From contig CAIWJG010000811.1 in the NCBI GenBank assembly GCA_903912925.1, positions 1-37,271 of the forward strand: a DNA stretch of 37,271 nt. The letters are read 5' to 3'. This DNA comes from an uncultured Verrucomicrobia subdivision 3 bacterium. GTDB lineage: Bacteria; Verrucomicrobiota; Verrucomicrobiia; Limisphaerales; UBA8199. Shown in pieces: positions 1,073-23,521 of this stretch (positions are counted from its first letter, which is position 1; each line of letters begins with the position of its first letter). Made by a program: the position numbers and the translations under genes. The notes beneath the pieces were generated by a model. That model was not told where the DNA came from. It saw only the letters and a list, made by a program, of their open reading frames with translations, and did not search any database.

Positions 1073-1155
1073 AACGTGAAACGTGAGCTGTGAGCTGCGG
1101 AGCGTGCCATTTCATTCGGATTCCCTTCACGTTTCACGTTTCACGTTTCCCTTCA
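1073..1155. repeat. GTGAAAC heptamer repeats forming an inverted pair at the coaE 3' end
   Basis: A (TTTCACG)n run at 1126-1149 faces a shorter GTGAAAC run at 1073-1086. AACGTGAAACGTGA (1073-1086) is the perfect 14-bp reverse complement of 1127-1140, leaving a 40-base loop. The inner GTGAGCT units (1083-1096) are variants of the same heptamer. The 9-bp direct repeat TTCCCTTCA (1121-1129 and 1147-1155) flanks the core run. The run supplies the last codons and the stop of coaE. A transcript hairpin is possible, but no T-rich tail follows, so I do not call it a terminator. Confidence 0.75.
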
Positions 1156-18081: not shown

Positions 18082-18159
18082 AAAACTTCACTACAGTTGA
18101 CTCGTCAAAACTCATTCCCTACGCACCCGGCAATTCTCATTACGGCCAGACCGCCCCCC

Positions 18160-18230
18160 GCCGGGCGAGGGCACCCGGCCTACATCCCGCGCAAAACCGC
18201 CCGCCTGTAGGCCCGGTGCCCTCACCCGGC
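18160..18230. repeat. Long imperfect palindrome, REP-like or terminator
   Basis: GCCGGGCGAGGGCACCCGGC plus CTACA (18160-18184) pairs with 18206-18230 at 23 of 25 positions around a 21-base loop. It sits between the 1001-residue gene and the 3288-residue gene. A GC-rich hairpin this long could stop transcription in either direction or stabilise the upstream mRNA end, but no T-run follows. The compact, symmetric form also resembles dispersed REP/BIME palindromes, which only a genome search could show. The rest of the 210-base gap holds the duplicated 3' end described next to it and no gene. Confidence 0.75.
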
Positions 18231-18232
18231 GT

Positions 18233-18335
18233 CCCGGCATCCAAGCGCACGCGATAGAACCGCTACGGCATCACGTTTCACGTTTCACGTTTCACCCCCC
18301 GGCATCCAAGCGCACGCGATAGAGCCGCTGCGGCA
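18233..18335. repeat. 38-bp direct duplication flanking a heptamer array
   Basis: Positions 18233-18270 and 18298-18335 are direct copies matching at 36 of 38 bases. Between them lies TCACGTTTCACG... (18271-18297), which on the minus strand is a run of GTGAAAC heptamers. The right copy is the last coding segment of the 1001-residue gene (residues RLYRVRLDAG). The left copy repeats the same sequence after the stop codon. The gene's TGA is the first triplet of the heptamer array. Confidence 0.9.
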
Positions 18336-21297
18336 CCGTGTTCGTGATCCGGTCCGTGACCTGCAACCGCGGGCACTCCGGGCCAGGCACGAAGATATTG
18401 GTCAAAGGCGTCCAATTGGTCGCCGTGTTAGACCGTTTCAATTCAAGGTAATTTCGCTTGAACGGAACACCGTTCCAGGAGAGCACGATATTGGTGCCGC
18501 CCAAGAGCACGGCGGACAGACTCACTTGCGAGGGGATGAGCACCGGCGCCGGGTCCAGGCAGTTGGGAATGCCGTTGTTGTTGGAATCCAGGTCGCAGCT
18601 TGTGACCAGCGCCAGGTTGAGGCGGTTGGTCGTGCCGTCGGGATAGACCACATTGGTGGAACTGAACGTGCCGGCATAGGATGGCACCCAGTTCAAGCCA
18701 CCGCCGTTCTTGCCGTTGAGCTTCTCCGCCAAGGAGACTCCGTTGATAATAAGCTGGGCGTAATAGATCTTCATGCCCGAAGCAAACTGGAGGTTGGCGA
18801 GGTTGCCGCTGCTGTCGAAGTTGGTCGCGTAATTCCGGCACTCCAGATAATCCACGTAGAGGGCGTTGTTCGTGGAGGGTCCCTCGAAGTCAAAGGCGCT
18901 GCTCTCCCCGCCGTCCAGGATCAGCCTCCCGAGAGCCGCGTTATTGCTGTAGCCCACCGCCACGGCGCCGAGATCCAGCCCAGCCCAGAGATTGGAGACC
19001 AGCGATCCGGGGTAGGCGAAACTATTGACGGTCGTGGCGAGCAGGCTGGCATTAGCGGGACGCCGCGTCAGGTTGATGCCGAAGCCCACCTGCCAGATGT
19101 TCCGATGGTTGACCGCATCGGCCCCGGCGAGCAGGCTGCCGTCATCCAGTTTGTTGGTTGCCGCCAACGTGATGCTGCGCCCGGCCACCAGCACCTGGTT
19201 GCTGATGAGCAGGCTGCCGCAGGTGAGGCTGATGTCGGCATCTGTGGCCAGGAAAATGCCATTGGTAATGGTAGCGGAACCAGCCTGGACGCTGAGCGGT
19301 CCGTCGCCGGCATTATTTGTGCCGCTGGCTTCGTAATAATTCGCCCAGGTCGAGTTTCCTTGCGAGCTAATGAAGCCGTGGTTCACAAAGCTCAGATAGG
19401 GCGCATCAAAGGTGCCACTGAACCAGGGTGGATCGTTGGAGTTGAAACCGAAGTAGATCGAGTCAAGATTGCTGATCTTGCCAAAGTTCGTCAGGCACTG
19501 CAACCTGGGCAGGTTGGCCGACCAGACAATATCGCCCGAGGTCAAGTTGATCTCCCCGTAGGGCGTTGGGGCATTGGCCGCATTGGTGCTGATAGTCAAA
19601 CGCAAGGTATCCAGCGTCAGGCTGCCGAACACGTTCAAGGCGTCGCCGATCAGCAGGTTGTCGCTGCGAAGGCTCAGATTCTGGATCTGCGAAGGCGACT
19701 GCGCCTCGAGCCGGCTGTCAATCATCGTCACATTATAATACGTGGCAATCCCGGCCGGGGAGGTATTCGTCCAGCGACCGCTCCACACCTCGACCTCCCC
19801 GGCCATACGGGGAATAAAGGGAGTGGTCAGATTGCTGATCGCCATGCTGGCGTTGGTGTTACCCAGATAGAAGTCACTGACGGGTGACACGATCACCGCA
19901 TTCGTACACCCCACGAAGTGATTGGTGGCGTTCAAGAGCAGATAGCTCTCGCCGCTTATTTTCGCGCGGTTCAGGTCCAAATATGAATTCGGGCCGGCAG
20001 CGGTCATTTCAATCCGGCCCGGCACGTTCGTATAGGTCGAGAAGGAAATAGTCGGATCGGGAATGAAGGCGCTGGCCGTGAGGGCGGCCGAGTAACCGGC
20101 GTTCGTGGCGTAGGTCGGGTAGTTGGTGCCGGCAAAGACCTGCGGATCCAGCGCCACATTATTCATTACCAGATCCGTGCCATAGCCGTACGGCGGGGCA
20201 TGGGTAATGGCGTAATTGTAGGGATGATACGTGGCAGCCGAGTAGCGGGTATAGAAGTACGAGGATTTCGGGGTCTGGACCACGAAGGGGGGCACACCCC
20301 AGGAGGAAGCAAAGGTATCCTCGAGGTAGAGCTGGTTCGTCACCACGGACGCCGTGGCTCGATTCGTCAGGAGGGCCTGCCATTGCACGATCTTGTCCGA
20401 TCCCGGCGAGCCAAAGGGACTGAACCGAACCTCGGTAGTGATAGCGGGGTTGGTCTGGCGCAGGAACAATACATCGATCGCCTGGATGCCCGAGCCAAGG
20501 GCATTGGTCCGGATATAGGTCTTGAAGCCGCTGGCGAGTTGCAGGTTCTGCCACATATAACCGTACATCGGCGGAAAGCCCGGATAGGTTTCAATCGTCG
20601 TTACCAGCAAGTACGAACTGGATACGAACGTGGGAGTGAAGGTCGCGGTGAGGGGATTGCCGTTATCAACGCCCCAGTAGATATCCCGCACTCCGGCCAA
20701 TTCGTTCGTTTCAGTGCCGACGGCACCGAAGGTCCCGCGCGCGAAATCGAGCTTCTGGCCGGCCAGCGTCATCAGACCCGCGCCCCCGACGGCGAGGGTG
20801 CCCTTGTTGTTGAGGTTGGTGGCGGACACCAGCAGATACGTCTCGCCGTAGATGTTGGCGTTAGTCGGATTGGCGTTGCCCGAATTCTGGAAGTTGGCGG
20901 ACCATCCATTGGTTCCGCCGTCGCGGTCGTAATAATCGAACCGGAAGCCCGAGTCGCCGACCATGCGGCTGGCGTTGGTCCAGTTACGCGTGTTCCACGA
21001 TTCGTAAGGTAGCGACGGCTGGGCGCCATTGTAGTAGGTGTTGACAATGGAGAACAGGGCCTGGTTAACGAAGTTCGAGGCGTCAATCTGCGGCGCAACC
21101 CCCGGCGGGGAAATAACAGTCACGCCCCCCGTGTTAATATAATTAGTGGTGGCCAGCGCCAGCGACGCCGGCAACATGCCGAGGAAGACCAACCAGCTAG
21201 TGAAACGTGAAACGTGAAACGTGATGCGGTGTAGCGACGACGGTAGCATGCCGAGGAAGACCGACCAGAGCAGCCGCTTCATATTCAAGAGGTTCAT
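18292..21297 (-). CDS. Secreted 1001-residue protein, beta-helix-like, function unknown
   Basis: I do not recognise a named family. The N-terminus carries a signal sequence whose hydrophobic core appears twice: VFLGMLPSSL, then VFLGMLPASLALA. They are separated by HRITFHVSRFTS, which is encoded by a heptamer repeat. The mature part is rich in Asn, Thr and Ser. Its short strand-like stretches (SLRSDNLLIGD, SITLAATNKL) resemble right-handed beta-helix adhesins. Near the end DLDSNNNGIPNCLDP looks like a calcium-binding thrombospondin type-3-like loop. The final segment, with NYLELKRSNTATNW and RLYRVRLD, matches the C-terminal module of its neighbours. The start at ATG 21297 lies 4 bases after the preceding stop; ATG 21282 (MKRLLWS) is a good alternative with a normal n-region. 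It is probably co-transcribed with the 739- and 649-residue genes, and is exported. Confidence 0.75.
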   Translation of the reverse strand: MNLLNMKRLLWSVFLGMLPSSLHRITFHVSRFTSWLVFLGMLPASLALATTNYINTGGVTVISPPGVAPQIDASNFVNQALFSIVNTYYNGAQPSLPYESWNTRNWTNASRMVGDSGFRFDYYDRDGGTNGWSANFQNSGNANPTNANIYGETYLLVSATNLNNKGTLAVGGAGLMTLAGQKLDFARGTFGAVGTETNELAGVRDIYWGVDNGNPLTATFTPTFVSSSYLLVTTIETYPGFPPMYGYMWQNLQLASGFKTYIRTNALGSGIQAIDVLFLRQTNPAITTEVRFSPFGSPGSDKIVQWQALLTNRATASVVTNQLYLEDTFASSWGVPPFVVQTPKSSYFYTRYSAATYHPYNYAITHAPPYGYGTDLVMNNVALDPQVFAGTNYPTYATNAGYSAALTASAFIPDPTISFSTYTNVPGRIEMTAAGPNSYLDLNRAKISGESYLLLNATNHFVGCTNAVIVSPVSDFYLGNTNASMAISNLTTPFIPRMAGEVEVWSGRWTNTSPAGIATYYNVTMIDSRLEAQSPSQIQNLSLRSDNLLIGDALNVFGSLTLDTLRLTISTNAANAPTPYGEINLTSGDIVWSANLPRLQCLTNFGKISNLDSIYFGFNSNDPPWFSGTFDAPYLSFVNHGFISSQGNSTWANYYEASGTNNAGDGPLSVQAGSATITNGIFLATDADISLTCGSLLISNQVLVAGRSITLAATNKLDDGSLLAGADAVNHRNIWQVGFGINLTRRPANASLLATTVNSFAYPGSLVSNLWAGLDLGAVAVGYSNNAALGRLILDGGESSAFDFEGPSTNNALYVDYLECRNYATNFDSSGNLANLQFASGMKIYYAQLIINGVSLAEKLNGKNGGGLNWVPSYAGTFSSTNVVYPDGTTNRLNLALVTSCDLDSNNNGIPNCLDPAPVLIPSQVSLSAVLLGGTNIVLSWNGVPFKRNYLELKRSNTATNWTPLTNIFVPGPECPRLQVTDRITNTVPQRLYRVRLDAGG
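21161..21268. repeat. 36-bp direct duplication flanking a heptamer array inside a signal peptide
   Basis: Positions 21161-21196 and 21233-21268 are direct copies matching at 32 of 36 bases. Between them is a 36-base insert (21197-21232) containing TGAAACGTGAAACGTGAAAC on the plus strand. The offset is 72 bases, a whole number of codons, so the reading frame survives and the signal-peptide core is duplicated. The base following the array, GTGATGCGGTGTAGCG, resembles the array flank at the gene's other end (GTGATGCCGTAGCG on the minus strand). Confidence 0.9.
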
Positions 21298-21301
21298 TTT
21301 C

Positions 21302-23521
21302 TTAGGGGTTTATAGTGATGGTCAGCGATCGCGTAATGGTGCGCGAGTAGCCCCCAGGTATGATTCCCGTCAGGCTCACAGTGAAAGAATAAGTCCCCCC
21401 CGACGACGGTGTTCCGCTGATCACCCCGCTGGGACTGAGGCTCAAACCGGGCGGCAGGGAACCGCCTGCCAGTGACCACGTAAGCGACTGAGCGCCAGTA
21501 GCCTGCAATTGGGTGGCCGGGTAAGCGGTGCGCGCCGTGCCATTGGGCGGACGCGCGGTGGTGATCTGGAAAAGTATCTGGGCCTCGAGATTCGCGATGC
21601 TGGTGCCGCTCGGGTACACCACCGGGGCATTGGTGCCTCCATCGAAGGAACCCCAGATGAAGTTGGTCCGGGCGGTGGACTCGCTCAGGCCACTGAGTAT
21701 ATAGTTGGTGCCATAGACGTTTTGGAGCAGCGGCCCGACTTTGTTGAAGGTAATCACCATGTTGGGCTCGATATTGCCCGGCCCGGAGATGCCGGGGTTC
21801 TTATTGGCGTCGTTGAAGTTGCCGGGCGTTGTGGTGCGAGACGCGAGGAAGCCTAGCAGATCAGAGGCGGTGATGAGGAAATCCGGCTTGGTGACGACGC
21901 GCCGCATCCAGGCGGTGTACGGCTGGCTGTTGGAGATGAGCACTTGCGAGTAAATGTTGGTGATCGGCTGGAAGAAGCGGCCGACCAGCGAGTCGTAATT
22001 GGCGCGGACGAAGGTAAAATGATCTATGCCCTGGCGCAAATTGGTATTCGCCGTGAGGCACTCCACCGGGTAGTAATTGAACCAGTGATTGGTGGAGTAG
22101 TTGACGATGGTCTGGCTGTAGGACTGGATGTTGGTGGAGCCCGGCGGGCCGTTGGTCGGGGACGACACGACATTCGTGTAGGAATTAGTAAAGGTGGCCT
22201 GCAACCCCAGGATGGCAATGCTGCAAAGGCTGGGCGGCAGAATGAAGTACTCGCCGACCACCTCGTTGGTTGGATAGGTGACGCTCGTGGTGCTGACGTG
22301 GGGCGGAGTTCCCACCGGGTCGAAAGGCGAGTTGACCATGGTGGTCGTCTGCACGGTATAGAAGTCCCGACCGGTGAGGAGATTCACATCCGGCACCGGC
22401 ACCATTACCCAAACGCCATTCCTTAAGACGAAAGTCATCAAATTGCCAAAGGTGTGGCGGTACTGTGTCTGCACCGTCAGGGTGCGGGTGGTGGTGAACA
22501 CCTGATGCGGCGGGGTGCCGACCGGATCCATTGGGTAATTCGTGAAATAGGCCGTGATGTTGGTCACCCAGATGTTCGTGAAGATGTTGGCGGTGGCGAC
22601 AATATTCAAGTCGGGATACAAGCCCTGGAGCGCCGCGGCATTATTGGTCAGCGCCTGGGCGGCCAGCAGCGTCAGGTTCGAGGTGATGAGTAACTGCTGG
22701 CCCCCGCCGGTATTGGTAGCGAAGAACGTGCTGTCGCTCGACATAGACTCCCAGTTGACGTTGTTGGTGCCATAGATGTATCGCAGGCCGCCGATGTCAT
22801 CCCGCGTCATCGCGGTGGTATATTGTCCGTAGCCAAAAGTGCCCATGGACGTGATGGGGTAGGTATTAAACACGAGCGGATCCACCGTGAAGGGCGTGGT
22901 GGTGGCCGTTGGAGTACCGGTGCAATACTCGTCGATGACATAACTGTAAAGGGTTCCGTTCAGGTAGCTGCTCGGCTCCCAGGTCACCGGATCGAAATTG
23001 CGTTTGATGACCCTGTAGATCATCCACGGACAGCTCAGTCCCGGCTGCGTCTCCCGCGAGCGCAGGGTCCAAACGTAGCGGTCGGACTCCGCCAAACCCA
23101 GTTCCTCCACCACCAGGTTGAGCGCAATGGTCTTTAGATCATAAAGGTGGAGCGCCTGCGCGCGATAGTTCACCCGCATCGTCTCCAAAGGCACCTCCGA
23201 CAGGTTCGCGCTGTATTTGGAGAAATTGGTCAGGCGGTTCAAAATGGCGAAGGCCTGCTCGACGGCGGCGACGCCGTTCGAGCCGAAGTAATCCAAGAAA
23301 TTCTGGTTGAAGCCGTAATAAATGACCGGCGTATTCCAGCGATACTCTTCGCCGAGGTTCTTCGGGGTGCCAATGTCCCCGCCCACCATGTAGCCGATCT
23401 CGGGGACCTGCCAAGTATCCGGGTCGTTGGCACCGGGGCCCAAAAGGGCGTAGCCGGAAGCAAGCTGCCCACCGAAGGCCAGCAAGGCCAGGCAGCCAAA
23501 GATTTTCGCAAGTCGCAGCAT
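21302..23521 (-). CDS. Secreted 739-residue protein with Ig-like C-terminal domain
   Basis: The N-terminus, MLRLAKIFGCLALLAFGGQ, is a clear signal peptide ending near ASGYA. The first 280 residues (IGYMVGGDIG, IYYGFNQNFLDYFG, VEQAFAILNRL, RDDIGGLRYIYGTNN) recall the layout of matrixin-like secreted proteins. I find no HExxH, however, so no protease activity should be assumed. The middle is rich in Thr and Asn. It repeats DPVGTPPH twice, near residues 335 and 405, each followed by a Thr-rich strand. The last 85 residues (LPPGLSLSPSGVISGTPSSG) form a putative Ig domain of the He_PIG type. It lacks the RFYR-like tail of its neighbours. It starts 11 bases after the 649-residue gene with a good ribosome-binding site, and its stop lies 4 bases before the 1001-residue gene, so the three form a tight operon. 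Surface or extracellular location is likely; the role is unknown. Confidence 0.78.
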   Translation of the reverse strand: MLRLAKIFGCLALLAFGGQLASGYALLGPGANDPDTWQVPEIGYMVGGDIGTPKNLGEEYRWNTPVIYYGFNQNFLDYFGSNGVAAVEQAFAILNRLTNFSKYSANLSEVPLETMRVNYRAQALHLYDLKTIALNLVVEELGLAESDRYVWTLRSRETQPGLSCPWMIYRVIKRNFDPVTWEPSSYLNGTLYSYVIDEYCTGTPTATTTPFTVDPLVFNTYPITSMGTFGYGQYTTAMTRDDIGGLRYIYGTNNVNWESMSSDSTFFATNTGGGQQLLITSNLTLLAAQALTNNAAALQGLYPDLNIVATANIFTNIWVTNITAYFTNYPMDPVGTPPHQVFTTTRTLTVQTQYRHTFGNLMTFVLRNGVWVMVPVPDVNLLTGRDFYTVQTTTMVNSPFDPVGTPPHVSTTSVTYPTNEVVGEYFILPPSLCSIAILGLQATFTNSYTNVVSSPTNGPPGSTNIQSYSQTIVNYSTNHWFNYYPVECLTANTNLRQGIDHFTFVRANYDSLVGRFFQPITNIYSQVLISNSQPYTAWMRRVVTKPDFLITASDLLGFLASRTTTPGNFNDANKNPGISGPGNIEPNMVITFNKVGPLLQNVYGTNYILSGLSESTARTNFIWGSFDGGTNAPVVYPSGTSIANLEAQILFQITTARPPNGTARTAYPATQLQATGAQSLTWSLAGGSLPPGLSLSPSGVISGTPSSGGTYSFTVSLTGIIPGGYSRTITRSLTITINP

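Follow-up and report, generated by a model that had tools for sequence, protein, structure and literature searches.

How does a bacterial signal peptide come to carry two hydrophobic cores with a tandem heptamer array between them? The question is raised by one gene in the window, that is, the whole stretch of 37,271 nucleotides analysed here (contig CAIWJG010000811.1 of assembly GCA_903912925.1, from an uncultured Verrucomicrobia subdivision 3 bacterium). A sequence-only reading had described two 36-bp copies of signal-peptide coding DNA around a 36-bp GTGAAAC insert, with an in-frame doubled core (VFLGMLPSSL and VFLGMLPASL); the coordinates and the identity of the copies were reproduced, and translation confirmed the open minus-strand frame. 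The features of this gene, and the further arrays of the window, are the following.

18292-21297, minus strand: host gene, an open frame for a 1001-residue protein with a signal peptide, with orthologues across the order and no Pfam match
21161-21196: duplicated target copy A, coding for LVFLGMLPAS, the C-terminal core, which adjoins the ALA cleavage motif
21197-21232, plus strand: 36-bp insert between the copies, CTA-(GTGAAAC)3GTGA-TGCGGTGT
21200-21224, plus strand: GTGAAAC array of 3.6 perfect units, within the 36-bp insert
21233-21268: duplicated target copy B, coding for WSVFLGMLPSSL, the N-terminal core
18233-18270: downstream copy of a second event, 38 bp, past the host gene's stop codon
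18271-18297, minus strand: 27-bp insert of the second event, with a GTGAAAC array at 18271-18295, from which the gene takes its stop codon region
18298-18335: upstream copy of the second event, 38 bp, the last codons of the host gene
1126-1149, minus strand: third array in the window; its inverted partner lies at 1073-1093, and it is not flanked by a duplication

The minus-strand frame translates as MNLLNMKRLLWSVFLGMLPSSLHRITFHVSRFTSWLVFLGMLPASLALATTNYIN, which confirms the doubled core as well as the open frame. The two copies are direct, identical at 32 of 36 positions and spaced 72 bp from start to start, and the array between the cores reads HRITFHVSRFTS in the host gene. The chance expectation of the 14-base array pattern in the window is 0.00. 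No inverted repeats were detected at 20900-21500, and the signal-peptide insert thus lacks terminal inverted repeats. Two of the differences between the copies are silent changes within a single Leu codon, from which we infer that translation of the doubled form has probably gone on for a while.

Relatives of the protein are present in 46 of 58 genomes of the order, and those with a readable N-terminus show one signal core only and lack the array peptide, including a relative from the same genus (L028) whose single core is MKRLLLWILLSALPAPLALASSNYV. The ancestral state was judged from related genomes, among them this congener and none of the same species. Because orthologues, same genus included, have one core, the signal-peptide insertion is a derived, in-frame gain of 72 bp, the 24 codons of which correspond to one core copy plus the insert. 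In the N-terminal alignment that the sequence-only reading had called for, the array and the second core are both missing from the orthologues.

The same gene carries a second event at its 3′ end, missed by that reading, in which the copies are identical at 36 of 38 positions; the upstream copy codes for the usual C-terminus (RLYRVRLD) and the other lies past the stop codon. Just beyond the gene, at 18158-18232, a dispersed element forms a near-perfect palindrome (GCCGGGTGAGGGCACCCGGCCTACA), and a search against Rfam gave sub-threshold matches only, chiefly to this palindrome (weak microRNA matches on both strands). Elsewhere in the window, positions 88-256 hold several adjoining tandem arrays with an 11-bp period and differing units.

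A two-unit GTGAAAC pattern has 455 matches in the 8.8-Mb assembly. The 1.34 Mb sampled, the DNA with most of the listed arrays, contains 214 arrays in 176 clusters, many of them of 3.6-3.9 perfect units. Adjacent duplications were found at 9 of 164 testable clusters versus 1 of 20000 shuffled flank pairs, and are therefore not due to chance; arrays flanked by direct copies, which the earlier reading had proposed to look for, do recur in this genome. About 95% of the arrays have no flanking duplication, which may be explained by duplications that have decayed or by another route of spread. In a type I-C locus, the intergenic stretch between cas1 and cas2 also consists of a heptamer array (L151 9800-9835, equivalent to C422:11799-11834; L240 1334-1360). 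This array is common to the window genome (G000) and its congener G001, so arrays can outlast the decay of any target duplication. Duplications flanking arrays were absent from G001 (0 of 19 clusters) and from G010 (0 of 46 clusters), and either the process is peculiar to the lineage of the window or most arrays are older or spread otherwise. Background rates were drawn from G010, from 148 kb around orthologues and from public contigs.

Several further observations concern the arrays themselves. At L175 (8388-8567), one of the nine clusters with duplications, a 38-bp segment occurs three times, separated by two heptamer arrays, in an arrangement like a miniature CRISPR. Contig C374 (L137, L138) carries about 10 arrays in one orientation, roughly 2 kb apart, in an apparent repeated gene family, alongside ATTCTGC heptamers. 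In public genomes, an identical GTGAAAC array is found across many phyla (L243-L322), including Anaerolineae, Desulfococcaceae, Gemmatimonadota, Nitrospirota, Bacteroidales, Gallionella and Verrucomicrobia, and the relative G022 has 43 occurrences of CAAAGTGCAAAGTG, the heptamer pair reversed but not complemented. A literature search with the array sequence returned unrelated cancer papers only.

An unbiased scan of the 1.34 Mb for isolated direct repeats of at least 26 bp revealed a recurring geometry. Pairs spaced 60-79 bp are sharply enriched (18, against about 0.8 per 10-bp bin elsewhere), with copies of 32-41 bp and inserts of 27-39 bp; a stricter scan gave 13 pairs in the 60-80 bin versus about 1 per 20 bp elsewhere, the copies being mostly 32-41 bp. 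The heptamer lies in the gap of 8 of the 18 pairs, where 0.4% would be expected (P ~5e-15), and among the other gaps are some with an ATCGAAC hairpin, a GGCTGAA array or further short repeats. Copies average 33.6 +/- 4.0 bp (core copies 27-41 bp) and inserts 35.0 +/- 5.7 bp. Longer inserts may also exist, since at two hairpin sites copies of 30-36 bp enclose some 112-117 bp. In BLAST searches within the same DNA, most flank copies match only themselves and most inserts have 5 to more than 500 matches; a unique target thus surrounds a repetitive insert, which argues for insertion rather than local duplication. Four cases are weaker: the inserts of L145 and L022 are single-copy in the DNA examined, L022 falling within an internally repetitive protein, and the copies of L060 and L192 match dispersed families in part.

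Copy boundaries are abrupt and the mismatches interior. With 0-5 differences between the flank copies, few of the events are recent. Of 43 copy mismatches, 36 are transitions; for the remaining direct repeats of this DNA the figure is 1561 of 2977 (P = 4e-5). The excess may reflect damage in a single-stranded gap. The strand polarity of the differences leans about 26:11 toward deamination in 5′-overhang gaps, a post hoc comparison with one misaligned row dropped that gives P ~0.02 and is not significant when counted by event.

The events fall mostly at gene borders, with genes called from open frames only. They lie inside signal peptides (the window gene and L170), across the start codon (L068, L211) or closely upstream of it (L070, L210, L072), and at 3′ ends (window 18271, L175). 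The second signal-peptide case, L170, is an open frame of 1856 codons, subtilase-like from its catalytic motifs, in which the first copy plus the insert double the signal core; its orthologues, including the same-genus L381, have a single core. Selection against intragenic insertions may explain the border placement as well as a target preference does. The suggestion that such events are a way of remodelling secretion signals holds to the extent that two doubled cores exist, but gene starts and ends are hit generally, and signal peptides as the purpose are unsupported.

What was observed directly is the insertion relative to orthologues, the mostly unique target around a repetitive insert, the narrow lengths and the recurrence. 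These observations make it probable that short dispersed repeats are inserted at staggered cuts, leaving target duplications of unusual length; the cut, its filling-in and a shared enzyme are what we infer from them. A piece of dispersed repeat of about 36 bp, comprising a GTGAAAC array and a few flanking bases, would have entered at a staggered cut in the signal-peptide codons, and fill-in of overhangs of about 36 nt would have duplicated the target. The 72 bp so gained would have kept the frame and doubled the hydrophobic core. The same process would have acted at the 3′ end of the 1001-residue gene and at about 14 other sites in the genome, where the inserts are heptamer arrays, small hairpins or short repeats of other kinds. 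Because unrelated inserts have similar length, that length would be set by the machinery rather than by the element. The sequence-only reading had offered both a target duplication around an inserted element and a repeat-driven template switch. Single-core orthologues, unique flanks, dispersed inserts and the recurrent geometry support the former, whereas a simple template switch is disfavoured by copy and insert lengths that are both narrowly distributed.

In its fuller form, the template-switch explanation holds that replication slippage or template switching first made a 36-bp tandem duplication, and that the same faulty replication put in or lengthened the heptamer at the junction. It could draw on L175, where three copies and two arrays are what repeated slippage might yield, and on the hypothesis, cited in PMC4692102, that heptamers are slippage-prone. 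However, the heptamer and the other family sequences occur at unrelated sites, which indicates that the insert was copied rather than made locally; both lengths are narrow, and the 1.34-Mb scan found no isolated direct repeats spaced less than 50 bp, so that we regard this origin as distinctly unlikely. A misjoining of strain variants or repeats in a metagenome-assembled genome is a very improbable source of the pattern. The assembly is indeed fragmented, with 997 contigs of which several end in arrays, but the frames are intact at both signal-peptide sites, the two silent changes sit in a single Leu codon, the insert types differ and the geometry recurs at many independent sites. Ku-dependent end joining was rejected, as Ku was not found in the window genome or in G001, and G010 has Ku and many arrays but is free of duplications. 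Reverse transcriptase was likewise dismissed as a discriminating factor, being present in all eight genomes searched.

Off-target spacer integration by Cas1-Cas2 in vivo was reportedly observed by Nivala and colleagues in 2018. Here, Cas1-Cas2 could take short self-repeats as prespacers, join them off-target and duplicate a target of repeat length, which would make it a candidate enzyme for staggered-cut insertion rather than a full alternative to it. Copy and insert lengths that are both narrow despite unrelated inserts are what an integrase with rulers would produce, and in the type I-C array of the genus the repeats measure 37 bp and the spacers 33-35 bp (37/34 in this genome itself), values closely matched by several events, with copy/insert lengths of 37/34, 36/35 and 36/36. 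The genome also encodes the I-C cas1 (C422:10711-11658), directly followed by a 96-residue open frame that is presumably cas2, and further cas1 genes on C237 and C256. On the other hand, on- and off-target Cas1 junctions favour G (54%; PMC6895254), and G was found at 10 of 32 insertion ends here (P = 0.008 against 54%). The event lengths scatter far more than those of the cognate array, none of 10 I-C spacers is a heptamer spacer, and G001 has a similar I-C system yet no duplications at its arrays. We consider an involvement of Cas1-Cas2 unlikely. More broadly, we offer as a tentative and rather doubtful conjecture that an integrase with rulers for target (about 36 bp) and insert (about 34 bp), perhaps Cas1-Cas2 of the same cell or a relative of it, spreads heptamer and hairpin self-repeats and reshapes gene starts, including signal peptides.

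How gene-less repeats of 20-40 bp spread through bacterial chromosomes is an old question. The duplications of about 36 bp provide a measurable footprint, consisting of cut spacing, insert length and end bases, that can be searched for in any genome and that hints at an enzyme with rulers. They also show how repeats can change the N-termini of proteins, as in the two signal peptides with doubled cores.

Target duplications made by DDE transposases are short, about 2-14 bp. An insertion sequence or MITE was rejected here, as copies of 27-41 bp are too long and the heptamer inserts have no terminal inverted repeats (some of the other inserts are hairpins). Elhai and colleagues are said to have described in 2008 small dispersed repeats of about 20 bp in cyanobacteria that were suspected of being mobile, repeats to which PMC2884548 and PMC3116915 also refer. 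Long target duplications are not known from REPINs, and the heptamer arrays are not palindromes. A likeness to the REPIN/RAYT system (PMC3116915) lies in repeats that are short, non-autonomous and dispersed, some of them palindromic. Intergenic heptamers of Xanthomonas (GGGAATC) and Nostoc (GGGGA(T/C)T), with about 186 loci per Xanthomonas genome, mostly of about four units, share with the present arrays the 7-bp unit, the hundreds of dispersed arrays, the common occurrence of about four units and some inverted pairs; the unit differs here, some copies lie in coding DNA, and a flanking target duplication is unreported in the accessible part of that source (PMC4692102). Insertion with target duplication is already known as a kind of event, and the combination of a tiny repetitive insert with a duplication of about 36 bp is undescribed as far as our search extended. 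Off-target Cas1-Cas2 integration in vitro (PMC6895254) resembles the events here in placing an insert of about 34 bp between copies of a duplicated target of about 36 bp, whereas the events here have no G preference, more scattered lengths and, as inserts, the genome's own dispersed repeats.
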